Below, in pieces: positions 14,712-63,892 of a stretch of 64,000 nucleotides of DNA (within the stretch, counting starts at the first letter, position 1; each line of letters opens with the position of its first letter). The DNA lies in contig NZ_QGNJ01000006.1 of assembly GCF_003336875.1 (NCBI RefSeq), positions 124,001-188,000 on the forward strand, written 5' to 3'. The translations under genes and the position numbers were made by a program. The stretch is from Oleisolibacter albus. Its GTDB lineage: Bacteria > Pseudomonadota > Alphaproteobacteria > Azospirillales > Azospirillaceae. Below the pieces are notes generated by a model, which saw nothing but the letters and a program-made list of their open reading frames with translations, searched no databases and was not told the DNA's origin.

Positions 14712-14762
14712 GGGATTCCTCCTTCGACGGCGCGCGGCGCCATCCCTCGAATGCGTCCAGGG

Positions 14763-16796
14763 TCAGAGCAGCGCCACGGCGGCGGAGACCACACGCTCCG
14801 GCGTCAGGCCGTAACGCGGGAACAGGTCCGCCGCCGGCGCGGATTCACCGAAGCGGTCGATGCCGACGACGCCACCGTCCAGCCCCACATATTTGCGCCA
14901 GATGTCCGGGCTGCCGGCCTCCACGGCCAGACAGGGCACGCCGCGGGGCAGCACGGCCCGGCGGTACTCCTGCGACTGGCGGTCGAAGCGGCTGGTGCAG
15001 GGCATGGAGACGATGCGGGCTGCCACCAGCTGCCGGGCCAGCAGGTCCCGCGCCGCCATGGCCAGCGCCACCTCCGACCCGGTGGCGACGATGACCACGT
15101 CCGGCACCCCGTCCGTATCCGCCAGCACATAACCGCCGCGGGCCGCCCCGTCGGCCCGGGCCGGACCGGCCTGCGCTGGAAGGCCCTGGCGTGACAGCAG
15201 CAGACAGGTGGGACCGGACGACCGTTCCACGGCAGCGCGCCAGGCCACAGAGGTTTCCAGCGCGTCGCAGGGACGCCAGACATCCAGGTTGGGAATCAGG
15301 CGCAGGGACGCCGCATGCTCCACCGGCTGGTGGGTGGGGCCGTCCTCGCCCAGGCCGATGCTGTCATGGGTCAGCACGAAGATGCTGCGCACCCCCATCA
15401 GCGCCGCCATCCGGATCCCGTTGCGGGCATAGTCGGAAAAGACCAGGAAGGTGCCGCCGAACGGGATGAACCCGCCATGCAGCGCTAGGCCGTTCATGAT
15501 GGCGGCCATGCCGAATTCCCGCACGCCGTAATGGATGTAGTTCCCTGCCCCGTTCGCCGTGACCGGGCGGCAGCCGGGCCAGTCCGTCAGGTTCGATCCG
15601 GTCAGGTCGGCGGACCCGCCCAGCAATTCGGGCAGATGCGGGGCCAGGGCCGTGATGGCCTGCTGCGAGGCCTTGCGCGTGGCCACGGCATCGGTACGCG
15701 CGGCAGTGGCCATGATCCAGGCATCGGCCTTGCCCGGGAACTCCGTCGGCAATTCCCCGGCAAGGCGCCGGACCAGCTCCACCGCCAGATCCGGATGGGC
15801 CCGGGCATAGGCGTCGAAACGGGTCTGCCAGTCGCGCTGACGGGCAGCCCCGCGGGTACGGGCGTCCCAGCCGGTACGCACATCCTCGGGAACGGTGAAG
15901 GGCGGGGAGTCCCAGCCCAGGGCCGCGCGGGTGGCCGCGGCCGCTTCTGGGCCGAGCGGCGCACCATGGACCTCATGGCTGCCGGCCTTGTCCAGGGCGC
16001 CCCAGCCGATGACGGTGCGGCAGCAGATCAGCGTCGGTTTGCTGGACGCCAGCGCCTGCGCGATCGCCTCGCCGACGGCCTGGGGATCATGGCCGTCCAC
16101 ATCCCGGATCACCGTCCAGCCATAGGCCGCGAAGCGCGCCGGCGTGTCGTCGGCGAACCATCCCGCCACATTCCCGTCGATGGAGATGCCGTTATCGTCA
16201 TAAAGGACGGTGAGCTTCGACAGCCCCAGCGTCCCGGCCAGGGAACAGGCCTCGTGGCTGACACCCTCCATCAGGCAGCCGTCACCGGCGACGACCCAGG
16301 TGCGATGGTCGACCACGGCATGGTCCGGCCGGTTGAACTCCGCGGCCAGAAGCCGCTCCGCCAACGCCATGCCGACGGCATTGGCCAGCCCCTGCCCCAG
16401 CGGCCCGGTGGTGGTCTCCACCCCCGGCGTCAGACCCGCCTCGGGGTGGCCGGGGGTGCGGGAATGCAACTGGCGGAAGGACTTCAGATCCGTCAGGGAC
16501 AGGTCGTAGCCGCTGAGATGCAGCAGCCCGTACAGCAGCATGGAGGCATGGCCGTTGGACAGCACGAAGCGGTCGCGGTTCGGCCAGCCGGGATCGGCGG
16601 GATTGTGGCGGAGGAAGTCGTTCCACAGCACTTCGGCCACGTCGGCCAGCCCCAGCGGCGCACCGGGATGACCGGAGCGGGCCTGCTCCACCGCATCGAT
16701 GGCCAGAACTCGCAGGGCATTGGCCAGGCGCCGACGATCGGGCAAGAGGGGGGCGTCAGCCCGGTCGGCGACCGGGCGCGTCAGGGTCATGCTCAT
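14763..16796 (-). CDS. cbbT: Transketolase
   Basis: 677 residues, the normal transketolase size. A thiamine-diphosphate enzyme that moves two-carbon units during RuBP regeneration. The N-terminal domain shows [51 protein letters not shown] and the ThDP/Mg motif [11 protein letters not shown]...[11 protein letters not shown]. The pyrimidine domain shows [35 protein letters not shown] and [19 protein letters not shown]. The ATG at 16796 is preceded by GGAGGAAC at about 9 nt. It lies between cbbP (49-nt gap) and cbbA and is co-oriented with the RuBisCO genes, so it is the Calvin-cycle copy. Confidence 0.96.
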
Positions 16797-16845
16797 GGGA
16801 CTGTTCCTCCGAGTGACGTTGCTATGACCGGTCGGATAGACCGGT

Positions 16846-17721
16846 TCAGAACGCCTTCTTCTTGCGGTCCATCAACTGCCAGATCATCGGCGTGAAGATC
16901 AGCTGCATGGCCAGGGCCATCTTCCCGCCCGGGCAGACGATGGTGTTGGGGCGGGTCATGAAGCTGTCCTTCAGCATCGACAGCAGATAGGGGAAGTCGA
17001 TGCCCTTCGGCCGGGCGAAGCGGATCACCAGCATGCTCTCGTCAGCCGTGGGAATGTCGCGGGCGATGAAGGGGTTGGATGTATCGACGGTGGGCACCCG
17101 CTGGAAATTGACATCGGTCAGGGAGAATTGCGGACAGATATAGGTCACATAGTCCGGCATCCGCCGCAGGATGGTGTCGATGATGGCTTCTGGCGAATAG
17201 CCACGGATGGTCTTGTCGCGGTGGATCTTCTGTATCCACTCCAGATTGACGATGGGAACGACGCCGATCTTCAGATCGGCATGGCGGGCCACATCCACCG
17301 TCTCGGTGCGCACGCAGCCGTGCAGCCCTTCATAGAACAACAGGTCGGTGCCTGCCGGCACATCCTCCCAGGGCGTGAAGGTGCCCGGCGGCTGGCCGTA
17401 GGGCGCGGCCTCCTTGTCGTCGTGCAGATATTTGCGCACGCGCCCCGTCCCGGTTTCGCCATAGCTGCGGAACAGCTCCTCCAACTCCTCGAACAGATTG
17501 GCGTCCGGGCCGAAATGGCTGAAGCTGGTGGCCTGCCGGGCCGCCGCCTCCTGCTGCTTGGCCCGCATCTCCAGCCGGTCGTAGCGGTGGAAGCTGTCGC
17601 CCTCGACCAGGGCGGCTGTCAGCCCCTCGCGCCGGAAGATCTGCTGGAAGGTCTGGGTGACGGTGGTGGTACCGGCACCGGACGAGCCGGTGACGACGAT
17701 GATCGGCTGCTTGCTCGACAT
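16846..17721 (-). CDS. cbbP: Phosphoribulokinase
   Basis: 291 residues, the typical bacterial class I size. Phosphorylates ribulose-5-phosphate to the RuBisCO substrate and is one of the two enzymes unique to the Calvin cycle. The P-loop is GSSGAGTTT, followed by [11 protein letters not shown], the conserved [22 protein letters not shown] and [13 protein letters not shown]. As in bacterial class I enzymes the plant redox cysteines are not evident; allosteric control by NADH would be expected from the family. The gene sits 3 nt after cbbF. Confidence 0.97.
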
Positions 17722-17724
17722 GGC

Positions 17725-18816
17725 TCAGGCCTCCAGGCTCAGGCTGGGCGCCCGGAACAGCGACCGGATGCCGAAGAGCGGCGCCTCGAACACCTCATCC
17801 TCACCCCGGTCATGCTCGGCGTGATAGCGCACCAGCCGCTCGACCTCCTGGGCCGACCCCAGGATCAGCGGCGCCCGCTGGTGCAGGGATGCCGGCTCCA
17901 CCTCCAGGATGCGGGCCCGTCCGGTGCTGGCCGCGCCGCCGGCCTGCTCCACCAGCATGGCGATGGGATTGGCCTCGTAGAGCAGGCGCAGCCGGCCGGG
18001 CTTGCAGCTTTCCCGCGTATCGCGGGGGTACATGAACAGGCCACCACGGATCAGGATGCGATAGACCTCAGCCACCAGCGACGCGATCCAGCGCATATTG
18101 AAGTCGCTGCCGCGGGGGCCGGCCTTGCCCTGCACGCATTCCATGACATAGCGGCGCACCGGCGGTTCCCAGAAGCGCTCGTTGGACGCGTTGATGGCGA
18201 ACTCGCAGGTCCGCTCGGGGATGCGCATGTCCGGGTGGGTCAGGGTATAGGCCCCGATCTCCGGGTCCAGGGTGAAGCCATGGGTCCCGTTGCCCAGGCT
18301 GGCGATGATCATGGAGGTGGGGCCGTAGAGGGCGAAGCCGGCCGCCACCTGCTGCGTGCCTGGCTGCAGGAAATCCGCCTCCGTCGGCTCCGTCACGCCG
18401 TCCGGCGCCCGCAGCACGGAGAAGATGGTGCCGACCGTGACATTGACGTCCAGATTGGACGACCCGTCCAACGGATCGAAGACCAGCAGATAACGCCCCC
18501 GGGGATAGTGGTCCGGAATGGTGTAGGGCTGCTCCATCTCCTCCGAGGCCATGCCGCAGAGCTGCCCGCCCCATTCACAGGCGCGCAGGACGATGTCGTT
18601 GGCCAGCAGATCCAGCGGCTTCTGCTCCTCCCCATGCACATTGATCCCCGCCTGGGCCAGCGGAGCATTCAGCCCCCCACGGGCCACGGCACAGGCGATG
18701 TGCTTGCAGGCGGTCTGGATGTCGTTCAACAGGGCCGTCAGTTCGGTATCCGGGCCGCCGCGGCGGCGCTGATCCTCGATGATGAAGCGGCTGAAGGTCG
18801 TGCGACGGTCCGGCAT
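17725..18816 (-). CDS. cbbF: Fructose-1,6-bisphosphatase, class I
   Basis: 363 residues. Hydrolyses fructose-1,6-bisphosphate (and possibly sedoheptulose-1,7-bisphosphate) in the regenerative phase. Class I motifs are plain: the metal site [19 protein letters not shown], preceded by an acidic SEEME, and late [20 protein letters not shown] with [13 protein letters not shown]. It sits between cbbX (53-nt gap) and cbbP (3-nt gap), so it is the cycle-specific copy; whether it also acts on sedoheptulose-bisphosphate cannot be seen. Confidence 0.96.
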
Positions 18817-18869
18817 GCGTTTTCCCCCCGTTTATGGTTCTTGGCTGCCTGCGGCCCGGATTGCCGGGC

Positions 18870-19790
18870 CTATTCCGCGAAGACCCTGCTTTTCCTCAGA
18901 TCCTCTGCGGTGATCAGTTGCAGGTCGTCGGCATCCAGCAGCCGATCCCGCGTGGCGAACAGCCGCCCGGCCTGGCGCAGACGCGCCCGGTCCAGGGCGT
19001 TCCGGATGGAACGGGCATTGGCGAAACGGGGCTGGCGCATGCGCCGGCCGATGTAATCGGCCATGGCCGCCGTCCCGTCGGGGCTGAAGCGGTACTGCAT
19101 GTCGCGCATCATCACCTGCGCGATCCGCAGCAGCTCGTCCGGGCCATAGTCCGGGAAATCGATATGATGGGCCACGCGCGAGGCCATGCCCGGATTGCTC
19201 TGGAAGAAGGTGTCCATCCGGTCCTTGTAGCCGGCCAGGATCACCACCAGATCGTCGCGGCTGTCCTCCATCACCTGGAGCAGGATCTCGATGGCCTCCT
19301 GGCCGTAATCGCGTTCATTCTCGGGCCGGAAGAGGTAATAGGCCTCGTCGATGAACAGCACTCCGCCCATGGCGCGCTTCAGCACCTCCTTGGTCTTGGG
19401 GGCGGTGTGGCCGATATACTGGCCGACCAGATCGTCACGGGTGACGCTGACCACATGCCCCCGGCGCACATAGCCCAGCGCGTGCAGGATGCCGGTCATC
19501 CGCCGGGCAACCGTGGTCTTGCCGGTGCCGGGATTTCCGGTGAAGCACATATGCAGGGCCGGCGGCTCGGCCTGCAGCCCCAGCATGCGGCGGGCGCGTT
19601 CCACCAGCAGCAGGGCCGCGATCTCGCGGATGCGGGTCTTGACCGGGACCAGGCCGATCAGGTCGCGATCCATATCGTCCAGCAGCCCGTCGATGCCGGA
19701 ATCCCGGTGCAGGGCCTCCAGATCGACAGCGGTCGGGGGGGCATCGGTTGCAGGGACGGGGGCGGACGGGTCCGACAGAACCAGACTCAT
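18870..19790 (-). CDS. cbbX: CbbX, AAA+ red-type RuBisCO activase
   Basis: 306 residues. Hexameric AAA+ remodeller that pulls on the C-terminal tail of the red-type large subunit to free inhibited active sites. It has Walker [10 protein letters not shown], a pore loop VGQYIGHT, Walker [12 protein letters not shown] and a sensor region [15 protein letters not shown]. Its presence matches the form IC large subunit upstream, whose tail ends in the expected DYVPTP-type peptide. The ATG overlaps the stop of cbbE by 4 nt. RuBP-dependent activation is known for the family. Confidence 0.96.
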
Positions 19791-20497
19791 GCCGGCCGCC
19801 CCACGGGCAGCGCCCGTTGCAGCTGGTCACGCATGTCCGCGATGACGCCGCGGTAGCCGCCGTCCCGGTCCGGCGCCCCGAAGATCGCGGAGCCGGCAAC
19901 GAAGGTGTCGGCTCCGGCCTCGGCCACGGCACGGATGTTGCCCGTCTTGATGCCGCCATCCACCTCCAGCCAGATCTCGCCGCCATGGCGGGCCGTGTGC
20001 CGGTCAATGCGCTGGCGGATGGCGGCGATCTTATCGAGTGCCTCCGGGATGAAGGCCTGACCGCCGAAACCGGGATTGACCGACATCACCAGGATCAGGT
20101 CCAGACGACCCATCACATGGTCGAGGCAGTGCAGCGGCGTCGCCGGATTCAACACCAGTCCCGCCCTGCAGCCATTCTCGCGGATCAGGGTCAGGGTACG
20201 GTCCACATGCTCCGAGGCTTCGGGATGAAAGCTGATGATATCCGCACCCGCCTTGGCGAACAGGGGCACCAGCGCATCCACCGGCTTGACCATCAGATGC
20301 ACATCGATCCGTGCGCGGGTGCGCGGCCGGATGGCGGCACAGACCGCCGGCCCGATGGTGAGGTTGGGAACGTAATGGTTGTCCATGACGTCGAAGTGGA
20401 TCAGGTCGGCGCCGGCGGCGACCACCGCCTCCACCTCTTCCCCCAGGCGGGCGAAATCGGCTGACAGGATGCTGGGCGCGATACGCAAGCCGGTCAT
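19787..20497 (-). CDS. cbbE: Ribulose-phosphate 3-epimerase
   Basis: 236 residues, a TIM-barrel epimerase converting xylulose-5-phosphate to ribulose-5-phosphate, the phosphoribulokinase substrate. Seen: [66 protein letters not shown] and EVDGGI, which include the metal-binding His/Asp residues of the family. It overlaps cbbS and cbbX by 4 nt each, so all three are translationally coupled. Placement of the epimerase between cbbS and cbbX is a feature worth comparing with other form IC operons. Confidence 0.95.
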
Positions 20498-20943
20498 GTC
20501 GCACCTCCGGCCGGGGGTGGTGGCGCGGCATAGCGCACGCCGGCCGGGCTGCCGGTGGCATAGCTGCGCAGGGTGTACTGGATCTGCTGACCGGGTCCCT
20601 GGCTGCGCACCAGCTCGAAGCCCGGTTCCTCCGCCGGCCGGCCGACCAGGAAGGACATGCGCACGGTCTCGAACCCCCGGGTGGAGTCGAAGGCCAGGAC
20701 CTTGACATAGCGGCCGGCATGAACCTGGCGGCAGGCGGTGACCTCCTGCATCACGCCCACAGCGTCCCGCAGATCGAACAGGGGCGTGCCCCACATCTCC
20801 CAATAGGCATTGCGGGGATGCGGATCATCGGTGAACTCCACCGCCACGGCCCAGCCCTGGTCCAGGGCGTACTGGACCTGGGCCCGGATCTCCGCATCCG
20901 TCAGGTCGGGCAGAAACGAGAATTGTCCTTGGGTCAGGCGCAT
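20494..20943 (-). CDS. cbbS: RuBisCO small subunit, red type
   Basis: 149 residues. The small subunit caps the L8S8 enzyme. The N-terminus [16 protein letters not shown] is the form IC/ID signature, and [19 protein letters not shown] and [18 protein letters not shown] follow. The long C-terminus ([19 protein letters not shown] onward) is the beta-hairpin extension of red-type small subunits. The ATG at 20943 has a GGCAAGAGGAGGCG Shine-Dalgarno and lies 26 nt after the large-subunit stop. Confidence 0.97.
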
Positions 20944-20969
20944 CGTCGCCTCCTCTTGCCGGATGGGGG

Positions 20970-23613
<2,644 letters not shown>

Positions 23614-27663: not shown

Positions 27664-29028
27664 ATGCATAAAGAACAACTCGCAAGCCCAGACACAACAT
27701 ACATAATAGACGGCTTCCGATCACTCAGATCTTTTTCAATAACTCTCACCCCAGGGATAAATGTCCTTGTTGGCCCGAACGGCGCCGGAAAGACTAATTT
27801 CATTGATTTTCTAGATTTTCTTGATGAAACAATATCAAATGGCGCCGCTACAGGCATCTCGAAGGTAGGCGGCGTAGCGCGCGTATTTAGTATGGAGATC
27901 TACAAGAACAGTAGCCCAACTTTAAATGCACAAGTTCGTGGATTGGCCAAAATTTTCGACGCCGACCAACAGAAAATATTTATATTTAACTATGATTATT
28001 CAATTGAAATTCGATTTAGTAAGAACCATTCCTCTATATATATAGCTAAAGAAGCTTTAAAATTATGGAAGCTAAGGACCGCGGGAGAAGAAAATCCGAC
28101 CTCGTCCCCGGTTGGAACCATATCTGTTTCCAGAGCGTCACCTTTAGAAGATCTTGAACCAAGAATTCAGGTCAGCCCCAGATTTCGAACACAAAATATA
28201 AGAAATCCATTTAGAATTTTACCTAGGTATATGAGTCCAAATCAAAAAAAAGATTATTTGAGCCGATTCTCTTATTTCTTACTAAATCCAGATGAAAGCT
28301 TACTTTCTGGCCGTCACGGCTTTCCAGCAATCGATGCAGTCCGACAAGCAATAACTCGCGGAAAATCATTCAACATTGTACCAGAAAAAGCCAGGCAACC
28401 TGATGATCTGACTCGCCCCCCTCTTATTGCCCGAGATGGGGCTGGTTTATCAGCGACCCTCCACCACCTCCAACGAGCAAAAAACAACAGAACTTACAAA
28501 AGAGTAAATCGCCTCCGAAGAGTAAGTCCAGAACTCCTGTCTACAATTTTAGAATGGACAAAACTTGTTTTTCCGGATCTTCAGGATATATCCGTCACTC
28601 AAGACCCACATACAGGAAAGTATATAGGATATTTACACGTGGGATGCATGCAGACTCTGCGAATTCCCCTGCAGTCTGCAAGCGATGGAACGTTAAAGTG
28701 GCTCTCTTTAGTCACACTTATTTCCACCGAAGGAAACGCATATTCAATTGAAGAGCCTGAAAATTTCCTACATCCTAAAATGCAACAATTCCTAATTGAT
28801 TTGATCAGGGAGTCATTTTATTCCGAGCACAATACAGAATATTTTATTATTTCCACTCACAGCGAAACATTGCTGAATCATTGCCGAGCAGAAGAATTAA
28901 TTATCTTCAAGTTCGAAGAAGGGAGGACAGTGTGCGGGAGAATAAATAATCCTGATTTAGTGCGCCAAGAAATCAACAATACTGGCTTTGGACTGGGTTA
29001 TTACTATGCAAGCAATGCATTGCCGTAA
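27664..29028 (+). CDS. AAA (SMC/OLD-like) ATPase of a two-gene putative defence unit
   Basis: 454 residues, ABC/SMC-class ATPase of the AAA_15/AAA_21 kind used in OLD, PARIS AriA, Septu and similar systems. The N-terminal Walker A is GPNGAGKT (residues 37-44). A long central insert follows, then a signature-like SDGTLKWLSL (about 340), Walker B YSIEEPENFLHP (about 360) and an H-loop STHSETLL (about 397). The ATG at 27664 has TAAGGA about 8 nt upstream. The sequence is strongly AT-rich (19 G/C of 60 at 28021-28080), using many ATA, AGA and AAA codons, unlike all neighbours, so it was probably acquired. It overlaps the next gene by 23 nt. The defence role is inferred, not shown. Confidence 0.8.
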   Translation: MHKEQLASPDTTYIIDGFRSLRSFSITLTPGINVLVGPNGAGKTNFIDFLDFLDETISNGAATGISKVGGVARVFSMEIYKNSSPTLNAQVRGLAKIFDADQQKIFIFNYDYSIEIRFSKNHSSIYIAKEALKLWKLRTAGEENPTSSPVGTISVSRASPLEDLEPRIQVSPRFRTQNIRNPFRILPRYMSPNQKKDYLSRFSYFLLNPDESLLSGRHGFPAIDAVRQAITRGKSFNIVPEKARQPDDLTRPPLIARDGAGLSATLHHLQRAKNNRTYKRVNRLRRVSPELLSTILEWTKLVFPDLQDISVTQDPHTGKYIGYLHVGCMQTLRIPLQSASDGTLKWLSLVTLISTEGNAYSIEEPENFLHPKMQQFLIDLIRESFYSEHNTEYFIISTHSETLLNHCRAEELIIFKFEEGRTVCGRINNPDLVRQEINNTGFGLGYYYASNALP

Positions 29029-29581
29029 GATAATCGCTTTTGTTGAAGGAAGCATGGAGAGGTTATTTATAAATAATAATTTCCCCTATATAGACGTTAT
29101 TCCAATACTAAATGGAGAGAGCTGGACAATTGAAGCGCTATGTAAACAGGTTTCATCAAAATTTGCAGTCAAAAATATCAATGCTGATAGGATCATTATT
29201 TGGGTTGACAAAGAACGACAGAGGTGCACTTCAAATGAAGTGTCAATAAAAATAAAAGATGCACTTGTCAGCAAAGGAGCGAATCCGAATATAATATCTG
29301 TATGCATACCCGACAGAATGACAGAAAATATAATACTGGCAGATGAATGCATGATGCGAGAATATATTGATGATGACAATTATCAATATAAATATGAGGG
29401 CCAAAATGGAAAGTCAATCCTATCGAGTATATTATTAACTAAAGGAAAAAACTACAAGCCCATTTCCGAAGGCGTAATGCTACTAAAGAAAGTTCGATTG
29501 AGCAGATCAGCAGAAAATAGCAAAAGCGCAAAACTGTTTTTAGACAGTTTTTGCGTAAAATGCTGGTGGATTGGCCCGTGA
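29006..29581 (+). CDS. Small TOPRIM-like (DUF4276/RloB-like) partner of the ATPase
   Basis: 191 residues from ATG 29006 (the ATG at 29015 is equally possible). The start IIAFVEGSMERLF puts Glu14 after the first strand, IIIWVDKERQ gives a D-x-E pair (Asp68, Glu70) after a hydrophobic strand, and PDRMTENIILADE (about 102-114) recalls the E-x-W-x-LAD region of DUF4276-type proteins. These are the landmarks of a minimal TOPRIM nuclease fold. Encoded with an OLD/SMC-like ATPase, it resembles the effector halves of PARIS (AriB) or RloAB, but is shorter than AriB and has no recognisable DUF4435 length. Same AT-rich composition as its partner. Family placement is by motif, so moderate. Confidence 0.6.
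   Translation: MQAMHCRKIIAFVEGSMERLFINNNFPYIDVIPILNGESWTIEALCKQVSSKFAVKNINADRIIIWVDKERQRCTSNEVSIKIKDALVSKGANPNIISVCIPDRMTENIILADECMMREYIDDDNYQYKYEGQNGKSILSSILLTKGKNYKPISEGVMLLKKVRLSRSAENSKSAKLFLDSFCVKCWWIGP
29527..29555. repeat. Inverted repeat within the 3' end of the TOPRIM-like gene
   Basis: CGCAAAACTGT (29527-29537) pairs with ACAGTTTTTGCG (29544-29555), with one bulged base and a 6-nt loop. It lies in the last 18 codons of the gene. It could be a terminator-like hairpin, or the edge of the inserted segment with the gene end rewritten by the junction. Confidence 0.5.
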
Positions 29582-54703: not shown

Positions 54704-55262
54704 ACCCTCAATCCCGGGGGTGGACGCCATGGCGGCACCGGGCACCGCCGGACGGGCGGCAGGACGCCATGGTGCGATGCGACAGCGATCATCGGCCAAA
54801 GCGGCCGCCGGGCGCAGCAGGCAGAAGACTATCCCCCATCGGCGGGAGCCGGTTCCCCCACCCGGCGGCGGCCAGGCCCGTTTCGCCATTCGTCCGGACG
54901 GGGAGATCGGGCCGGCGGCACCCCGACCGGCACGGCCGGGGAGGCCGCGCCCCCTTCGCGCCGCCACACCGGATGCGCCGATCCCCTGGGACGGCCGCCG
55001 ACCGATCTGGCGCAGCCGGGAGCGGAACCAGACGAAGACAGAGCATGTCAAGTCATTGACAGCCGCCCGCACGGATCAGAACCGAACCGATTTCAACGAA
55101 TTTCAAATCAAAACGGTCGGAGAAATTTCTGCATTGCTGTCAGAACTGTGACCGTTCGTCGACATGGGGCCGTTGTCTCTGGACGCTTTCGGGGTAGCCC
55201 ACTAGTGCATGGCAAAGACGAGTTACTTCTTTCGATGCACGCAGTGGAGAAGGACCCCGATC
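54704..55262. other. 559-bp divergent gap between FkbM and M10 protease genes
   Basis: No gene found. The first 350 bp are GC-rich and carry only chance frames. From about 55065 to 55145 the sequence turns AT-richer, with TTTCAACGAATTTCAAATC at 55090-55108, and probably holds the protease promoter. Leaderless or regulated starts cannot be separated by eye. Confidence 0.5.
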
Positions 55263-56843
55263 ATGAGTGCGCCCCCCCCCGGCACAATCGACGCTGTGAT
55301 CTATGGCGGCACCCGCTTCTGGAAGGCCGCCAGCGCCAGCACCGGCGCCACCACCGTCAGCTACAGCTTCCTGACCTCGACCCCCAGCTATTATCCCGCG
55401 GGCTGGACCGAATGGAAGGGCATGACCCCGTTCACCGCGGCACAACAGGCCGCGACGCAGGACATCCTGTCCATGGTGTCCAGCGTGGCCAATATCCGCT
55501 TCGTGCAGACGGCGCAGACCGCCACCAGCGCCGGCGACATCACCTTCGGCAATGCCAAGAACACCAGCGCCACCGGCTGGGCCTATGGGCCGGGCGTGAA
55601 GATGGGCGGCGATGTCTGGATCAGCTCGTCCAAGGCGGGCTATGACGCGCCCGTGGTCGGCACGAAATCCTATTTCGCCATCCTGCACGAGCTGGGGCAT
55701 GCGCTGGGGCTGAAGCACACCGGCGATTATGGCGACGGGGAGGGTCCGTTCCTGCCCAAGGCCCAGGACAATGAGCAATACACCGTCATGTCCTACAACC
55801 TGCATCCGGGCATGGGTTCGGTGCGGCCGGCCACGCTGCAGCTGTACGACATCGCCGCCCTGCAATATCTGTACGGCGCCAACATGTCCTATCAGGCGGG
55901 GGATACGGTCTACCGCTTCGCCGGGACCAAGGATCTGATCGCCACCTATTGGGATGGCGGCGGCATCGACACCTTCGATGCCAGCGGCGAAACCGCCACC
56001 GTCTGCATCGACCTCAACGACGGGGCCTTCAGCTCCATCGGCCTGTGCGGCACCAAGGCGGCCAAGAACAACATCGCCATCGCCTATGGCGCCGAGATCG
56101 AGAACGCCACTGGCGGGGCCGGCAACGACACGCTGACCGGCAACGCCCTGGACAATGTGCTGCGCGGCGGGGCCGGCAACGATACCATCACCGGCGGCAA
56201 GGGCAACGACACCATCGACGGCGGCAGCGGCACGGACAAGGCGGTCTACAGCGACATCCGCGCCCATTACACCGTCAGCGTCCTGGATGACGGCATCCGC
56301 ATCACCCACAGCGGCGACGGGAGCGACGTCGTCCGCAATGTGGAGCAGTTCAGCTTCGCCGACGGCACCTTCACCCTGGACCAGCTGCGCCCGGTCCCGC
56401 CCGTGGCCTCGCTGCCGCCGGCCCCCACAGCCCCCAGCCCGACCCCGGTTCCCGTACCGGCACCGGATGCGACCGTGCTGACCGGAACCGCCGCGTCGGA
56501 GCTGACCACCGGCACCAAGGGCGCCGACATCTTCCTCAGCAGCGCCGGCAACGACCGGCTGAGCACGCCGCTGGATGGCGCCTGCGACCTGTTCGTGTTC
56601 AGCAAGGGTTTCCAGGGCGACCGCATCTTCAATTTCGAACTGGGCATCGACAAGCTGGACCTGACCAGCTTCGGCATCGACAGCCTGGGCGACGGACGCC
56701 TGTCCCTGGCCCAGGGTGGGTCCGGCGTGCAGCTTGACCTGGGCGGCGGCGACAAGATCGTGCTGAACGGGATCAGCATGACCGATCTGCTGAAGCATGA
56801 CGTGCTGGTGCCGCACGACCAGGGCTATTTCCTGACGGCCTGA
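55263..56843 (+). CDS. M10/serralysin-type RTX metalloprotease
   Basis: 526 residues from ATG 55263, preceded by GAGAAGGA. Zinc motif HELGHALGLKH (HExxHxxGxxH) with the Met-turn VMSYN place it in M10B. RTX calcium repeats follow: GGAGNDTLTG, GGAGNDTITGGKGNDTIDGG, and a second short set near GTKGADIFLSSAGNDRL. The C-terminus DQGYFLTA fits an uncleaved type I secretion signal. Secreted through an ABC/HlyD/TolC system not present in the window; the pump at 9479-13628 is not of that type. No Sec signal. A protease for extracellular protein digestion or biofilm turnover. Confidence 0.92.
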   Translation: MSAPPPGTIDAVIYGGTRFWKAASASTGATTVSYSFLTSTPSYYPAGWTEWKGMTPFTAAQQAATQDILSMVSSVANIRFVQTAQTATSAGDITFGNAKNTSATGWAYGPGVKMGGDVWISSSKAGYDAPVVGTKSYFAILHELGHALGLKHTGDYGDGEGPFLPKAQDNEQYTVMSYNLHPGMGSVRPATLQLYDIAALQYLYGANMSYQAGDTVYRFAGTKDLIATYWDGGGIDTFDASGETATVCIDLNDGAFSSIGLCGTKAAKNNIAIAYGAEIENATGGAGNDTLTGNALDNVLRGGAGNDTITGGKGNDTIDGGSGTDKAVYSDIRAHYTVSVLDDGIRITHSGDGSDVVRNVEQFSFADGTFTLDQLRPVPPVASLPPAPTAPSPTPVPVPAPDATVLTGTAASELTTGTKGADIFLSSAGNDRLSTPLDGACDLFVFSKGFQGDRIFNFELGIDKLDLTSFGIDSLGDGRLSLAQGGSGVQLDLGGGDKIVLNGISMTDLLKHDVLVPHDQGYFLTA

Positions 56844-56853
56844 CCCCGCCGGG

Positions 56854-57729
56854 TCATTCCGCGACCCGGCCGGGACCCGGCCGGGCACGGGACCGCAGGC
56901 TGCGCTCCAGCCCCCGCAGCGCGCCCAGCCACAGACGGGCGAGGTTGCGGGGCACGAAGCGCCAGGGACAGCAGAGCAGCACGAAGACCGAGAAATAGAC
57001 CGGATTGGCCGGCGCCTTCTTCGAAAAGAGCTTGGCCAGATAGTCCCGTGCCGACCCGGCCTGGATGCGGTGCAGCCCCGTGGTCCCCAGATCGACTTGG
57101 AGCTGGAACGCGTCCGCCAGCTGGAAGGCCAGGCCGCGCCGGTGGGCACGGATGGTGAATTCATAGTCGGACAGGTAATGGGGCAGCAGCCGGGGCCGGA
57201 AGCCGCCGGTTCCGCGGAAGTCCCCCAGCCGCAGCACCAGCCCGCGGGTGGAAAAGCAGGTGATCTTCTCCGGCGGCGCCTGGAAGTCGAACTGCAGGCG
57301 CCGCCAGTCCACCTGCACTCCGGCCGTCGAGGGCCGCCCGGTGCGCAGGTCGAAGGCCCGGGCCAGCAGCATGGACCGGGGCCGCAATAAAGTGGCCGCC
57401 TGTTCCAGGAAGGCCGGGCCGATGCGGGTATCGTCGTTGAGGATCAGCACCAGATCGTCGGCCCGGCTGCTGCCGTCGTGCAGGCGCCGGCAGAGCGTGC
57501 GATAGGCCAGATGCAGCGCCCCGCCCCACCAGAGCGTGCCGTCGCCCTGGAGCACGACCGTTCCCGGCAGATGGGTGCGCACCATGTCGGCGGTGCCGTC
57601 GGTGCTGCCGTCATCGACCAGGAACAGGGTGAAGTCCCGCCAGCTCTGACGGCAGAGATCCAGGATCAGACCTTCGGTGACGGTGCGCCGGTTGTGGACC
57701 GGGACCACCACATGGATGTGCGTGCCCAT
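56854..57729 (-). CDS. Family 2 glycosyltransferase
   Basis: 291 residues. GT-A fold: VVVPVHNRRTVTEGLILDL, LVDDGSTDGTADMVR, and the DxD-like LILNDDTRIGP. The tail FSVFVLLCCPWRFVPRNLARL is a hydrophobic segment suggesting membrane association. Starts ATG 57729, chosen from the conserved fold start. It lies 34 bp after the kinase-hydrolase gene on the same strand, so it probably belongs to that operon. Donor and acceptor are unknown; a rhamnosyltransferase-like activity is possible. Confidence 0.9.
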   Translation of the reverse strand: MGTHIHVVVPVHNRRTVTEGLILDLCRQSWRDFTLFLVDDGSTDGTADMVRTHLPGTVVLQGDGTLWWGGALHLAYRTLCRRLHDGSSRADDLVLILNDDTRIGPAFLEQAATLLRPRSMLLARAFDLRTGRPSTAGVQVDWRRLQFDFQAPPEKITCFSTRGLVLRLGDFRGTGGFRPRLLPHYLSDYEFTIRAHRRGLAFQLADAFQLQVDLGTTGLHRIQAGSARDYLAKLFSKKAPANPVYFSVFVLLCCPWRFVPRNLARLWLGALRGLERSLRSRARPGPGRVAE

Positions 57730-57763
57730 GGTATTCCCCCCCCGTTTCATGCCCGGCCGGAGC

Positions 57764-60700
57764 TCAGCGCGCCCCCTCCTCGATCTGCACGTCGAAGCTG
57801 GTGCTGTCATGGTTGATGTCCAGCGCCGGTCCCGGCGTCAGCACGAAATCGAGCCGCGTCCCCGCCTGCACCGTCACCGGCAGCCGGAACGCCTGCTGCG
57901 ATCCCGCCTCCCCCCCCAGCGATACCGCCCAGAGCGGCCTGCCGTCGGCCAGGATCAGGGCGCAGACGCCGTCGCCGCGGCCGGAGGAGGGCTGGACCCG
58001 CCCGGTCAGGGTCAGGGTCCCCGGCCGGGCCGCCGTCCAGCGCCGCACCGCCCAGACCTGCGATGTGCCGGAAATGCCGGGATGGGACCCGGCGGCATTG
58101 ATCTGGAGATAGGGCGTGGCACCGCGCCAGGCGCCCCCCCATTCGTCCTGGCGCCACTGCAACGGGCGCACGGCGTCGGGCAGATAGCCGCCGCCGGAAC
58201 AGCCCCGCCCCGCCGCCTGCGGTTCGACCACGGAGCCGTAACTCCAGACGCCGGCGCCCGCGGCGGCGAACTCGTCCCGGCTGTCGGCCAGCAGCGGCTG
58301 CCGGCCGAGATCCCTGACCGACTGCACCGGACCGTCGAGATAGACGGGTGTGGGCGTCAGGGTCAGCCGGACCACGCCGCCCCGCGCCGGCAGCCGGCTC
58401 TGCCGGCCCATGAGATCGGTCAGCACCAGCCCCTGCGCCGCCGCCAACTCCACCTCGGCCGGACCGTCCGGCGACCAGGCGATCTGGAGCGGCGTCCCGC
58501 CCCGGTCGAAGCGGTAGATGCGGGTGCGGCGGTCGCTGGACAGCCGCCCCTGCGGCCGGGCCGTCCCCACCATGCGGATGAAGGTGGCATAGGCCACATA
58601 GGCGGGAGCCGGGGCGTAGCGCCCCAGCGGGCTGTCGGCGGCCCGCAGCAGCCCCATGCCGGCGAACTTCCCGTCGTCCCGCAGCAGATACCAGTAGAGC
58701 CGCTCGACCCCGGTGTTCAGCATCAGCGTGGCGTGACGGACCAGATAGGCCGCGGCCCAGCGCCGCCCCTCCGGCGTATGCTCCTGGCGCCCGAATTCGG
58801 TGGCCCAGATCGGCTTGCCGCGGCCGCCATTGTGGCGGCGGATCTGTTCGCGCAGGCGGGCGATGTCCAGCTCCACCCCTTCCGGCACGGGGCGGTAGGG
58901 ATGGATGACGACGGCATCCATAGAGTCCAGCGCGCCCTGGGCGAACAGCGCCTCGAACCAGGGTTCCGGCAGCAGCACCGCCGCACCGCCGGCCACGGTC
59001 AGGCGCGGGCGCGCCTGCTTCAATGCGGCGGTGGTGGTGCGCAGCAGGGCGGCATAGCTCCCCGGCCGGTCCTCGCTGCACGGCCCCTTGCAGAAGCTGC
59101 CGTTGAACTCGTTCCAGACCTCGACCGCCGGGATCTCCCGCGCGAAGCGCTCGACCAGGAAGCGGCCATAGGCGGCGAAGGCGGCGCGGCCGGCGTCGGT
59201 ATGGGGGGTATTGCCGTCATCATGGAGGCGGTTCTCGAAGCTCAGCACCAGCAGGGGCGTGATGCCCTGGGCCGACAGCGCCTGCATATAGGTCTGGACC
59301 CGGTCCGGCACGGCATAGCGGCCGGGTTCCCGCTCCACATGGTTCCAATACATCTCGTCCCGGACCTGACCGATGCCGGCGCGGGCGATCAGGGGGACGA
59401 TGTCGGTGTCCCAGCCCTGGGCGAAATGGGTCATGACCCCGTAGCGGGCCGAGGGCCGGGCCGGCGGCGGCAGCACGGCCAGACTGAGCCGCGCCGGCGT
59501 GGCCGTTCCCGGCTCGCGCATCGCCAGCTCGTAATAGCCGGGCGTGGCCAGGGGCAGATCGAGCCGCGGCACCGTCCCGTCCGCGGGACGCTCCAGGGCG
59601 CCGCCGGCCACCCGCTCCCCCGTTTCGGTTTCCAGATGCCAGTCCAGGGGACCAGCCTCCGCCGTGACGGTGATCCGCGCCGTCTCCCCCGGTGCATAGA
59701 CCTGCCCCGGCCGGTCCGCCGCCAGGGCCAGGGCCGGCGCCGGACGGGGCGCCAGCATCAGCGCCAGGGCCAGCAGACCACCCGCCACGATCCGGCCAAG
59801 ATGGCCTTCCCCCCCATTCTGCCCCGGCCCCGGCTGCCCCGGCCCTGCCCGCCCTGGCCCGGCGGGGTCCTGCACCGCGGGCGGCCGCTTCGACAACGCG
59901 GCGAGGTCGCGGGCGACGAGGGCGGCGGCGGCGTCCATATGCTGCCAGCCGCGCGGCCGGACCAGACGGCGTACAGCCAGCAGCGCCGCCATGCGCGTGC
60001 AGTCGAGGAAACGCCGCTGCGCCTGGGACCGGGTCAGGAAATAGCCGCGGAAGGTGTTGCCCAGCAGGATGCGCAGCGCCGTTGGCGTGTCCACCGCCTC
60101 GCTGCGGGGCGCGCCCGCCGTGTCATCGCTGACCAGTTCGTACAGCAGGCGAAGCGGCAGACCGTCGGGGGCCTGGACCAGAGGCTGCGCCACATCGGTC
60201 TTGTCGACGCCGGGCATGAGCGCCTGCAACGCCTCCGGCCCCTGGCCCATGGCCAGCTGCGTGTCGAAACACATCTTGATGCGGCCGCAACTGGGAAAGG
60301 CCCGGATCGTGCCGTCGGCGGCGATACGGGTGACGCAGACATCGTCACTGAGCAGCTGGTAGCCGGCCCGCAGCAGCACGGCCGCCATGGTGGACTTGCC
60401 CGCCCCGGATTCCCCGACGAAGCCGACACAGGCGCCCTGCCCGTCCGCCGTCCCGCCCCGGCTGACGACGCTGGCATGGAAGGGCAGCAGGCCGCGCTGA
60501 TGGAAGATGGCGGCGAACCCGGACCCCAGCAGATAGAGGCGGACGGCCCGCGCATCGGCCCCCGGCTTCGGCGCCACCAGGATGCGGCAGCCGCCGGTGA
60601 TGCGGAAATTGGCCGCCCAGGGGATCGACACATCGACCCCGTCCTCGCCCACGCGGTAGCGGGGCGTCTGTCCCGCACCATCGAGATCGGCCACAGCCCC

Positions 60701-60802
60701 GACATCGACCTGCACATCGGCCGGCCCGGCCGGCACCGCCGGCAGTTCGGGCAACGGCAGGGCGGAACGGACCGTCAGGCCGGAGAACTGGTAATGATGC
60801 AC
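57764..60802 (-). CDS. Fusion: HPr-kinase-like domain, membrane segment, exported glycoside hydrolase
   Basis: 1012 residues from a GTG at 60802 with AGGGGAG 8 nt upstream. Residues 1-300 resemble HprK-like proteins of RiPP clusters: QFSGLTVRSALPLPEL, Walker A GESGAGKST (130-138), LLSDDVCVTRI. A Pro/Gly/Gln linker, then a hydrophobic segment (about 332-358, IVAGGLLALALML), place the C-terminal 650 residues in the periplasm. These carry a clan-A glycoside hydrolase (GH5/GH39-like): VWNEFNG with acid/base Glu565 and ATEFGRQ with nucleophile Glu669, the expected spacing, plus a beta-rich tail. No stop separates the parts and no ribosome site precedes the second. It overlaps the AsnB-like gene by 28 nt. 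Function unknown. Confidence 0.75.
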   Translation of the reverse strand: MHHYQFSGLTVRSALPLPELPAVPAGPADVQVDVGAVADLDGAGQTPRYRVGEDGVDVSIPWAANFRITGGCRILVAPKPGADARAVRLYLLGSGFAAIFHQRGLLPFHASVVSRGGTADGQGACVGFVGESGAGKSTMAAVLLRAGYQLLSDDVCVTRIAADGTIRAFPSCGRIKMCFDTQLAMGQGPEALQALMPGVDKTDVAQPLVQAPDGLPLRLLYELVSDDTAGAPRSEAVDTPTALRILLGNTFRGYFLTRSQAQRRFLDCTRMAALLAVRRLVRPRGWQHMDAAAALVARDLAALSKRPPAVQDPAGPGRAGPGQPGPGQNGGEGHLGRIVAGGLLALALMLAPRPAPALALAADRPGQVYAPGETARITVTAEAGPLDWHLETETGERVAGGALERPADGTVPRLDLPLATPGYYELAMREPGTATPARLSLAVLPPPARPSARYGVMTHFAQGWDTDIVPLIARAGIGQVRDEMYWNHVEREPGRYAVPDRVQTYMQALSAQGITPLLVLSFENRLHDDGNTPHTDAGRAAFAAYGRFLVERFAREIPAVEVWNEFNGSFCKGPCSEDRPGSYAALLRTTTAALKQARPRLTVAGGAAVLLPEPWFEALFAQGALDSMDAVVIHPYRPVPEGVELDIARLREQIRRHNGGRGKPIWATEFGRQEHTPEGRRWAAAYLVRHATLMLNTGVERLYWYLLRDDGKFAGMGLLRAADSPLGRYAPAPAYVAYATFIRMVGTARPQGRLSSDRRTRIYRFDRGGTPLQIAWSPDGPAEVELAAAQGLVLTDLMGRQSRLPARGGVVRLTLTPTPVYLDGPVQSVRDLGRQPLLADSRDEFAAAGAGVWSYGSVVEPQAAGRGCSGGGYLPDAVRPLQWRQDEWGGAWRGATPYLQINAAGSHPGISGTSQVWAVRRWTAARPGTLTLTGRVQPSSGRGDGVCALILADGRPLWAVSLGGEAGSQQAFRLPVTVQAGTRLDFVLTPGPALDINHDSTSFDVQIEEGAR

Positions 60803-62787
60803 AGATCGGCTCCCCTGCGCTGGGGCATGGCGGCGCCGGCCGTGTCCGCCCGCAGCCGCTCGGCCCATTCGATGAAGCGGCCGACACGGTGGCCGGTGAT
60901 GACGACGGCCTGGGTGCGGATGTCCCAGCCATTGTAGGACATGCGCCGGGCCGTCTCGTTGACGATCTGGCGCATCTTGCCCAGATCCAGGCAGTCCCGC
61001 ACGGCGGCATTGCCCTCCAGCCGCGCCAGATCCTGCAGCAGCCAGTCGCGCCGGCGGGCGATGCGGTGGTGGAAATCGGGGGTGAAGGCCCCCTTGCTAA
61101 CCCGCCAGCGCACGGCGTCGGGCAGAATGTCCGCCATGGCGTCGCGCAGCAGCCGCCGGCCGAAGCCGTCGCGGTGGATGGCGTCCAGCGGCGCCGAGCG
61201 GCATAGCTCGAACAGCCTGCGGTCCAGGAACGGGCGGGCGATGCCGACACCGGCGAAGCGGGCCAGGGCCAGGCTTTCCTCCTGCACCGAGGCCGGCGTG
61301 CTGGAGGAAAGCCCCTCCTGCAGGCGGGCGCTGAGGCTGAAGCGGCGGGGCCAGGACAGCGGGCGTTGCGTGGCCCGCAACCGCTCCTTGATCCCATGCC
61401 GCTGCGCGAAATCCGGCCGGATGGCGGAGATCGCCATATAGCGCCGGGCACCGCCATTGTTGATGCGGCTGCCGGGATGGAACCAGTGGTCGGGGATCAG
61501 GGGCGCCAGCGCCCGGGCCAGGATGCGGCGGCGCGGTTGCCGGTAGGCCCTGGCCAGCAGGGCCAGTTCGCGGTGGAACCGGCCCCAGCGCCCCGTCACC
61601 GCCAGATCCAGGAAGACGGCGCCATGCTGGAAGGAGGCGGAGGAATCGCCGACATAGCCATCGACCATGATCTGCGCGCCCTGCGCCGCCGCCGTGCGCC
61701 AGAGCGCCGCCGTCATGTAGTCGAAGGGATGGCGGCAGGGCTGGGACAGTGCCTCGAACCCGACCTCCAGCCCGTCGAAGGGCGTCTCGTCCTCGGCCGT
61801 GACATAGTACAGATCGATATTGGGATTGGCGGCAGCCACGGCCTCGATATAGGGGCGTTCATCCGCCTCCGGCCCCTGGTGCCCCGCCGGCAGCACCGAG
61901 GAGACGGCGACAAGGCGGCGGCCATCCTGGCGCAGACGCTGCGCCAGCAGACAGGCCAACGACGAGGAATCCAGCCCGCCGGAGAGCTGGACCGCCAGCC
62001 CGGCCCCGGTGCCGGCCAGGCTTTCCGCCCGCTCCCGCAGCAGGTCGCGCAGGGCGTCGGCATAGTCCTCCACCCGCGGCAGATGCAGCCGCGGCGCGTC
62101 GGCCAGGGACCAGTAGCGGGAGATGTGCGGCGTCCCTCCCGGCTGCCAGACCAGCCGATGGGCCGGCGGCAGACGCTGGATGCCGGTGAACCAGGTGCGC
62201 TCCCCGGCATCGGCGCAATGGACCAGGAACAGGCCGAGTGTCGTCTGGTCCAGCGGCGGCGGCCCGCCGGGCAGCGCCAGCAGGGAACGGACGCTGCCGG
62301 CGACGCAGAGGCCGTCCCCGCGCCGCGTGTGATAAAGGGCACGCAGACCCAGATGGTCGCGGGCACAGAACAGGGTCCGGTCCCGGCGGTCCCAGATGGC
62401 GAAGGCGAAGGCGCCGGACAGGCGGGTGACGCAGTCGTGGCCCCAGCGCGCATAGGCGGCGGCGATCAACCGGTCATCGCCGATGTCCGGTCCGGCCGGG
62501 TCCTGCCCGCCCAGGTCCATCCCCAGGGCCTGGGCCAGGGGCCGCCGCTCGGCCAGGTCGGCATCGGCCACCAGCACGAACCGCCCGTCGCCGGCCAGGA
62601 CTGGCGGCGCCAGGGCGCTGTCCCCCGGGTGCAGCAGCGCCTGGTTCTTGCCCAGGCAGACCCCGTCCTCCGCCCAGAGCCGCGGGCCGGCGCGGCGCCC
62701 GCCGCAGGGCAGCGCCAGCATGGACCAGACGATATCCGATGCGGCGGGCCCATCCCCCGATCCCACGACGCCGGCAATGCTGGTCAT
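60775..62787 (-). CDS. Asparagine-synthetase-like protein, putative lasso-peptide cyclase
   Basis: 670 residues. N-terminal glutaminase-like half (SGAFAFAIWDRRDRTLFCAR, HLGLRALYH) and C-terminal ATP-pyrophosphatase half with PP-loop VQLSGGLDSSSLACLL (about 265-280) and YVGDSSASFQHG. The nucleophile Cys2 of true glutamine amidotransferases is absent (start MTSIAGVVG), so it cannot use glutamine in the normal way, as in many lasso cyclases. With divergent PqqD and B2 genes it is most likely an amide-bond former on a peptide. The ATG at 62787 has GGGAGGGG about 6 nt upstream. Alternative: an asparagine synthetase-like enzyme of glycan biosynthesis. Confidence 0.8.
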   Translation of the reverse strand: MTSIAGVVGSGDGPAASDIVWSMLALPCGGRRAGPRLWAEDGVCLGKNQALLHPGDSALAPPVLAGDGRFVLVADADLAERRPLAQALGMDLGGQDPAGPDIGDDRLIAAAYARWGHDCVTRLSGAFAFAIWDRRDRTLFCARDHLGLRALYHTRRGDGLCVAGSVRSLLALPGGPPPLDQTTLGLFLVHCADAGERTWFTGIQRLPPAHRLVWQPGGTPHISRYWSLADAPRLHLPRVEDYADALRDLLRERAESLAGTGAGLAVQLSGGLDSSSLACLLAQRLRQDGRRLVAVSSVLPAGHQGPEADERPYIEAVAAANPNIDLYYVTAEDETPFDGLEVGFEALSQPCRHPFDYMTAALWRTAAAQGAQIMVDGYVGDSSASFQHGAVFLDLAVTGRWGRFHRELALLARAYRQPRRRILARALAPLIPDHWFHPGSRINNGGARRYMAISAIRPDFAQRHGIKERLRATQRPLSWPRRFSLSARLQEGLSSSTPASVQEESLALARFAGVGIARPFLDRRLFELCRSAPLDAIHRDGFGRRLLRDAMADILPDAVRWRVSKGAFTPDFHHRIARRRDWLLQDLARLEGNAAVRDCLDLGKMRQIVNETARRMSYNGWDIRTQAVVITGHRVGRFIEWAERLRADTAGAAMPQRRGADLCIITSSPA

Positions 62788-63147
62788 GAGCACCCCTCCC
62801 GCTCAGGCGACAGGACAGCAACCCGCCGGGGTTCCGACAGGACTGTTTTCAAACCAAAATGAGCCCAGGCCAAAGATGAACCTGCGCAGACGAAATATGC
62901 CGGACAGCACGGACCTAGCCGAAAGAGCGGACAGGCAAGAGATTGCGACTTCCATCTATACAGCATCGCTTCATCATGCTGCGCTGCGCCATCGGATACG
63001 GTCAACAGGCCATATAATTTTCCGTATGGATTAACGCCACTATGGCCTGGACTTGCCAACCAGCAGCAATGCACTGTCAAAGCCCTGGTTTGCGCCGCAT
63101 GCAACGGCACAACAGCGCCAACCGACAACGCCAAATGGAACGCCAGA
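62788..63147. other. 360-bp divergent gap in the RiPP-like cluster
   Basis: Where a lasso precursor might be expected. The only ATG-led frame of note on the plus strand, 62876-63034 (52 codons), lacks a leader motif and the Gly...Asp/Glu ring pattern. Minus-strand frames are shorter than 30 codons or run into the cyclase. Probably a shared promoter region; moderately AT-rich at 62930-63030. Confidence 0.5.
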
Positions 63148-63483
63148 ATGGGGCACCAGATGACGACGCTCAGCGCGGACAGCGTGATCAGGCGCGAGGC
63201 CGATCTTGTCATGGCCGACATGGCCGGCGGGGAAAAGGCGCTGATGAGCATGGGCACCGGGACTTACTTTGTTCTCAACAGCGTCGGCGCGAACATTTGG
63301 TCGCTGCTGGAGACGCCGCGGAGCGTGGGCAGCCTGTGCCGCGCGCTGGCGGCAACCTATGAGGTCGACCCGGAGGTCTGTCAGCAGAAGACCATCGCCT
63401 TCCTGGAAGGACTGCGGGCGGAACGGGTGGTGACGTTTGCCGATGCGCCCATTGCCCATGCGCCGGCTGAACAGGTGGCTTGA
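63148..63483 (+). CDS. PqqD-family protein (RRE, lasso B1-like)
   Basis: 111 residues. PqqD fold: VIRREADLVMADMAGGEKAL, MGTGTYFVLNSVGANIWSLL, then a helical part EVDPEVCQQKTIAFLEGL. In RiPP pathways such small winged-helix proteins (RRE) bind the leader peptide and hand it to the protease and cyclase. The start could be ATG 63148 or 63160. It overlaps the next gene, giving B1-B2 order, and is divergent from the AsnB-like gene. Confidence 0.88.
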   Translation: MGHQMTTLSADSVIRREADLVMADMAGGEKALMSMGTGTYFVLNSVGANIWSLLETPRSVGSLCRALAATYEVDPEVCQQKTIAFLEGLRAERVVTFADAPIAHAPAEQVA

Positions 63484-63892
63484 TCTGCCCCCGGCCCGCC
63501 GCCGCCTGCTGCTGGAGGCGGCGTGGCAGTTGCTGCGCGCGCGTCAGCGCATCCTGCTGGGGCATCTGCGCCGCCGCCGCCCCGGCCTTGGAACACCGGC
63601 GGCAACGGGGCCGCTGCCGCTGACGGCGGAACAGGAGGCAACGGTGCGGCAGGTGCGCTGGGCTGTCAGCGTCGCCGCCCGCCATGTGCCCTGGAATGCC
63701 GTGTGCCTGCCCCAGGCCATGGCGGCCAAGACCATGCTGGCACGGCGCGGCATCACCTCGGTGCTGTTCCTCGGCCTGCGCCGGGGGCGGGAGGCCAGGG
63801 TCCAGGCCCATGCCTGGCTGTGCAGCGGCCGCCTTTATGTGACCGGCTATGAGCCACCGATGGATTTCACCTGCATTGCACGCTTTCAGTGA
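63443..63892 (+). CDS. Lasso-peptide B2-type protease (transglutaminase-like)
   Basis: 149 residues from ATG 63443 (63458 possible), overlapping the PqqD gene by 41 nt. The conserved core is VPWNAVCLPQAMAAKTML (catalytic Cys88), GITSVLFLGL and AHAWL (His123); the Cys-His spacing of 35 resembles McjB. The third residue of the triad is not clear; a Glu (GYEP) stands near where an Asp is expected. The protein ends FTCIARF, typical for B2. It should cut the leader from a precursor peptide. The precursor is not visible in the window and may lie beyond 64000. Confidence 0.88.
   Translation: MRPLPMRRLNRWLDLPPARRRLLLEAAWQLLRARQRILLGHLRRRRPGLGTPAATGPLPLTAEQEATVRQVRWAVSVAARHVPWNAVCLPQAMAAKTMLARRGITSVLFLGLRRGREARVQAHAWLCSGRLYVTGYEPPMDFTCIARFQ

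Follow-up and report, generated by a model that had tools for sequence, protein, structure and literature searches.

Lasso peptide serine kinases are described as sharing a His-Lys-Asp-Asp motif and as targeting the C-terminal Ser of the precursor peptide, and in the pseudomycoidin cluster the nucleotidyltransferase PsmN is linked to the addition of hexose to the phosphorylated Ser (PMC9266682). PslG is reported from the inner membrane and the periplasm, where it acts on Psl, and its gene sits in a polysaccharide synthesis cluster (PMC9075953). No description of a fusion between a kinase and a hydrolase of these kinds was returned by a literature search covering titles and abstract openings. 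In the 64,000-bp stretch of the Oleisolibacter albus genome analysed here (referred to as the window), an open reading frame of this composition was found, and the evidence presented below suggests that it probably arose by a lineage-specific loss of a stop codon, which fused two enzymes that work separately.

The ORF (P0001) lies on the minus strand between a GTG start at 60,802 and a stop codon ending at 57,764. Translation gave 1,012 amino acids with no internal stop, so the single open frame claimed in the preliminary description was confirmed. From N to C terminus, the protein consists of a P-loop HprK-like kinase, a linker, one hydrophobic stretch and a hydrolase. The linker supposed to separate the two halves is indeed present (Gly/Pro-rich, about residues 308–331), and the proposed overlap with the cyclase gene amounts to 28 nt shared with the cyclase ORF at 60,775–62,793. 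The domain search was successful in part: both halves showed the motifs and the PDB profile matches, but the kinase half stayed below the Pfam and NCBIfam cut-offs, and Glyco_hydro_cc below its own. Consequently, the kinase and hydrolase assignments are based on motifs, profile matches to PDB chains, genomic context and, for the hydrolase only, the predicted fold. A full-length structure prediction left almost the whole kinase half at pLDDT <50 and yielded no usable kinase half or interface; since the underlying alignment contained hydrolase relatives only and the kinase pLDDT was low, contact between the domains is not readable from this model.

The kinase half (residues 1–307; 59,882–60,802, minus strand) carries the P-loop GESGAGKST at residues 130–138 (60,389–60,415, minus strand). 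In the alignment A3, which combined the kinase of the window with seven relatives (L040 was left out), G130, S132, G133, G135, K136 and T138 of the P-loop were invariant, and H109, K136, D153 and D154 were identical in all eight sequences. According to our own mapping, the latter four residues would represent the His-Lys-Asp-Asp motif of the lasso peptide kinases. When the A3 profile was compared with PDB, the best matches were the HPr kinases 1ko7 (6.7e-7) and 1jb1 (7.5e-7), and ABC proteins having the common P-loop ranked below them. The Pfam model Hpr_kinase_C scored 17.8 bits on this half, under its cut-off of 33.3, and the equivalog model HprK_rel_A scored 27.9 bits, under its cut-off of 200. 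Judged by its sequence, the kinase half thus appears to resemble the lasso peptide Ser kinases, and its earlier identification as an HprK-like kinase of a lasso cluster agrees with the P-loop, the invariant motif, the PDB profile matches and the neighbouring genes.

The lasso-cluster context of the fused ORF is real. The cyclase (C, asparagine-synthetase type, minus strand) scored above the cut-off of PF00733, and its best NCBIfam match was the lasso cyclase model (324.8 bits vs. a cut-off of 525). On the plus strand, the PqqD-like recognition protein B1 (63,148–63,483) exceeded the cut-off of PF05402 and reached 70.8 bits with lasso_PqqD_Bac (cut-off 80), while the lasso leader peptidase B2 (63,437–63,892, with a later start at 63,458 possible by coding score) matched NF033537 with 80 bits (cut-off 33). 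A PF14907 nucleotidyltransferase and an ABC transporter are also encoded just outside the window, together with a precursor candidate at 188,055–188,195 of the contig (G000:C41; 64,055–64,195 in window numbering), an ORF of 47 aa ending in PNPDPLS. A genome of the same genus, G001, has the same set of lasso genes (cyclase, B2, nucleotidyltransferase, ABC transporter and PqqD-like B1), and its precursor candidate (L058, 6,886–7,026, minus strand) ends in PGGAS. The core of lasso precursors generally begins with Gly1 and has an acidic ring residue at positions 7–9. Both candidates contain IGTEG, have Asp as core residue 8 and end in Ser, so the ORFs of both species would be compatible with the precursor rule (Thr at −2, Gly1, acidic residue at 7–9).

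The hydrolase half (57,764–59,719, minus strand), which also includes an N-terminal beta-sandwich and a C-terminal beta domain, is taken as GH39/PslG-like and putatively exported. A profile built of three sequences found 5jvk (2.3e-22) and PslG (3.9e-12) in PDB. The proposed acid/base Glu565 in VEVWNEFN (59,108–59,110, minus strand) and the proposed nucleophile Glu669 in IWATEFG (58,796–58,798, minus strand) were aligned with their counterparts in the WNE and TE motifs of 5jvk and PslG, and both were invariant in the alignments A1 and A4. Ten hydrolase loci were obtained by searching the named collection, of which A4 and A5 hold seven; L010, L011 and L012 were left out (the L011 and L012 stretches contained stops, and the match listed for L010 was that of L008). 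The AlphaFold model of this half, calculated from an alignment of eight sequences, had a mean pLDDT of 72.4, and 19 of the 28 ten-residue blocks within its residues 121–400 reached a mean of 80 or more. Foldseek matched the model to 5jvk (4.2e-28, TM 0.79 by target) and PslG (6.2e-21, TM 0.74 by target), and a TIM-barrel fold with the two catalytic Glu residues as in GH39 structures is predicted by it. With E values up to 1 allowed, Pfam returned no curated GH39 model, and Glyco_hydro_cc scored 17.7 bits, under its cut-off of 21. The MalQ_N match (25.2 bits, cut-off 24.1) was taken merely as a resemblance of the beta-sandwich. The clan-A type of the hydrolase with Glu565 and Glu669, as originally proposed, is supported by the 5jvk/PslG profile, the fold and the aligned glutamates.

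The search for further fusions covered 82 genomes of the family, including 11 of the same genus, and found a single place spanning both halves, that of the window itself. In G001, a TGA terminates the kinase gene. AAGGAG comes next, and then a distinct hydrolase gene, which starts with MRPRPESRRAVAWGLALALLSGSAMA in another frame and encodes its own signal peptide. G001 is the one same-genus genome that has both parts, and it provides the sole other locus where kinase and hydrolase are adjacent; the identity to the proteins of the window is 47–49% for the kinase and 53–55% for the hydrolase. The position of the kinase stop was surveyed at 43 loci, 40 of which gave a kinase match, corresponding to 39 distinct genes (L014 contains the same gene as L026, and the hydrolase locus L021 was excluded). 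In all 39, G001's included, the first in-frame stop occurs at about residues 294–316 in window numbering, as counted from the start of the alignment with gaps ignored. Accordingly, the assumption that homologues keep the fusion failed, and a conserved kinase–hydrolase fusion family was rejected: G001 has the genes split and none of the 39 distinct other kinases checked is fused. The result named in the preliminary description as refuting, a split at the linker with separate start codons, is thus seen in the single relative found to have the two parts side by side. The presence of two ordinary genes in a related species suggests that the fusion stems from a stop codon lost locally and is not a new type of coupled enzyme. 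We infer that the split state is older than the fused one; with only one other locus having both genes adjacent, the direction of the change (fusion vs. fission) is deduced from G001 and from the fact that the other kinases and hydrolases are not fused.

The linker (residues 308–331; 59,810–59,881, minus strand), where the stop codon of the kinase is missing, shows less coding character than any other part of the ORF. In the fused frame, the coding score reaches its minimum here, −0.23 for the 26 codons that begin with codon 316, a value as low as that seen in 0.95% of 4,841 overlapping windows of 11 neighbouring genes. Across the linker, all three frames lack a coding signal, while the same frame is coding on either side of it, which fits a formerly intergenic stretch that became translated after the stop was lost. 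At the GC content of the linker (about 82%), the chance that its 31 codons are free of stops is about 0.79; therefore, the lack of stops is ordinary, and the idea of a remarkable stop-free run was discarded.

The same GC-rich stretch could have suffered an assembly or sequencing indel, in which case the locus would truly contain two overlapping genes, a kinase ending at the TGA at 59,760 and a hydrolase starting at the GTG at 59,788. The composition of the linker, its run of seven Gs at 59,809–59,815 and the split genes of G001 are in line with such an error, and the TGA at 59,760, which is out of the fused frame, is the sole stop in any frame between 59,905 and 59,700. However, no frame of the window has a stop close to where the G001 kinase terminates, the other runs of seven and eight Gs in the ORF (58,140 and 57,917) keep the frame open, and the best-scoring frame is identical on the two sides of the linker. 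We consider this explanation unlikely. The frameshift suspected earlier around 59,750–59,900 was not borne out: it left no signature in the codon statistics, and a shift before 59,760 into either of the other frames meets only the TGA at 59,760, inside the signal peptide.

The signal peptide concerns the segment that had been described as a single membrane span. The hydrophobic stretch exists (about residues 338–351, best 19-residue Kyte–Doolittle mean of 1.67 at residue 343), but it is followed by PRPAPALALA/AD, resembles a signal peptide, and, as IVAGGLLALALMLA-PRPAPALALA-AD, aligns with the hydrolase N-termini of G001 and L003, a locus of a Rhodospirillales MAG. Read by eye, the putative membrane segment is most likely the Sec signal peptide of the hydrolase, now located inside the chain. 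On the basis of alignment and hydropathy, it covers residues 332–361 (59,720–59,809, minus strand), with likely cleavage, also judged by eye, at A361/A362. The in-frame GTG at codon 339 (59,786–59,788, minus strand) may serve as the hydrolase's own start, for which no strong ribosome-binding site was found.

The hydrolase was detected in 3 of 82 genomes of the order (G000, the window's own, G001 and G081; E 1e-12) and, with the G001 query, in 4 of 385 genomes evenly drawn from a larger group of the class (G000, G355, G171 and G386; E 1e-15). About two dozen weak matches to residues 530–710 in the family genomes (E 8e-4 to 1e-7) are taken, from their sequence, as putative distant clan-A hydrolases. 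The G001 kinase had no match in the hydrolase-bearing genomes G081, G171 and G386. One weak kinase match was obtained in G355 (1.6e-9, on C92, with the hydrolase on C73) and another in G462, the genome of L003 (1.3e-4, on C70, with the hydrolase on C149), and the Truepera and Microbacterium loci L004–L010 gave no kinase match at 1e-10. In L003, the hydrolase gene is surrounded by GT4, GT2, Wzx-type, second GT4 and sugar-transferase genes, each matched by the respective G001 protein (GT2, GT4, Wzx-type, second GT4 and bacterial sugar transferase), while the kinase, C, nucleotidyltransferase, ABC transporter and B2 had no match at 1e-10 in the 14 kb of this locus. A related GT4 gene is also near the hydrolase in G355, and in the window genome relatives of the GT2, GT4 and Wzx-type proteins are found past the lasso operon, on its far side. 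The fused ORF is followed downstream by a gene for a GT2-family glycosyltransferase (56,854–57,750, minus strand; assigned by Pfam, start from coding score). Since the L003 cassette is free of lasso genes and the glycosyltransferase relatives are also nearby in G355 and the window genome, the hydrolase is more likely an enzyme of an exopolysaccharide cassette that has the lasso operon next to it, in the way that pslG belongs to its own cluster. Two relatives of the hydrolase are parts of long proteins with RTX calcium-binding repeats (L067:8,301–12,197 and L069:7,637–10,351), thus the family is not confined to exopolysaccharide cassettes. One of these two proteins also has Ig-like and GDSL-lipase domains.

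Some further features of the window were recorded. A serralysin-like metalloprotease with RTX repeats (55,209–56,843) adjoins the locus. A low-GC island at 27,664–29,581 (GC about 0.41–0.52 vs. about 70% for the contig) encodes an AAA ATPase that matches the PADLOC HEC-01A (5.5e-39) and AriA models; the ORF after it (197 aa) has no PADLOC match. From these genes, the island is a possible anti-phage module. The region of about 14,000–23,000 resembles plasmid-borne RuBisCO/cbb genes of Cupriavidus and others, and the best plasmid matches among those listed for 1–25,000 belong to Azospirillum, Niveispirillum and Indioceanicola, indicating a related host.

A bifunctional, membrane-tethered enzyme, which would couple cytosolic phosphorylation of the lasso peptide with periplasmic glycan processing, was also weighed. 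The single frame with both sets of catalytic motifs intact, the adjacency of the kinase and hydrolase genes in two species, and the PF14907 nucleotidyltransferase of both clusters speak for such a coupling, as does the link of a nucleotidyltransferase, PsmN, to hexose addition on phospho-Ser in the pseudomycoidin cluster (PMC9266682). Against it, the genes are split in G001, there is no other fusion among the genomes and loci checked, hydrolase relatives exist without lasso genes, the linker has no coding character, and the hydrophobic stretch is short and has Pro and Arg after it, as in a signal peptide. Taken together, this arrangement seems quite improbable, and the original suggestion that phosphorylation and glycan processing are coupled in a conserved single chain found no support in view of the split genes of G001 and the L003 hydrolase free of lasso genes. 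That the fused chain is in use, the uncleaved signal anchoring the kinase at the inner membrane so that the precursor is phosphorylated beside its exporter, while the GH39-like part, in the periplasm, trims either a sugar put on the phospho-Ser with the help of the nucleotidyltransferase or the neighbouring exopolysaccharide, is highly doubtful, though it would mean that the lasso peptide is matured together with a surface glycan.

In the preferred scenario of stop-codon loss, an upstream stop codon would have disappeared in this lineage, joining the genes of neighbouring enzymes in one frame. The first enzyme would be a lasso peptide kinase, which is expected to act in the cytosol and to transfer phosphate to the precursor's C-terminal Ser, and the second an exported GH39/PslG-like hydrolase presumably belonging to the neighbouring exopolysaccharide cassette, so that the two halves would act on different putative substrates. 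Although its signal peptide would now lie inside the chain, the hydrolase may still reach the periplasm, either through the internal signal and cleavage by signal peptidase or by translation from an internal start such as the GTG at 59,788. Two observations point away from this scenario: the kinase and hydrolase genes lie next to each other in both species, possibly because of a functional tie, and other multidomain proteins, namely, those with RTX repeats, contain relatives of the hydrolase.

In consequence, a seemingly new enzyme architecture is dropped from the candidates, and the locus becomes a likely example of how, in a genome of high GC content, the loss of a single stop codon can create a fusion ORF. 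Apart from that, the analysis describes, for two species of the same genus, a lasso cluster with a kinase, a nucleotidyltransferase and a Ser-ending precursor candidate, next to which lie exopolysaccharide genes and a PslG-like hydrolase. A functional fused protein would physically link RiPP phosphorylation to glycan processing, and we know of no described system with such a link.

Compared with PslG and 5jvk, the hydrolase half shares the profile and fold matches, both aligned Glu residues, a signal peptide and relatives beside exopolysaccharide genes. It differs from them in its N-terminal beta-sandwich and its C-terminal beta region of about 250 residues, which was partly modelled at low confidence, and its identity to them is only 20–21% in the Foldseek alignments. 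The likeness to PadeK, ThcoK, SyanK and PsmK, drawn from motif and context, consists in an HprK-like P-loop protein beside C, B1 and B2, the His-Lys-Asp-Asp motif and precursor candidates ending in Ser in both species. Unlike these kinases, the predicted kinase is encoded by a frame that runs on into a hydrolase, in this genome only. Similar to the pseudomycoidin cluster with PsmK and PsmN, the lasso clusters of both species pair a kinase with a nucleotidyltransferase, the PF14907 assignment being made here only, but in contrast to that cluster, their lasso genes adjoin exopolysaccharide genes and a GH39-like gene.
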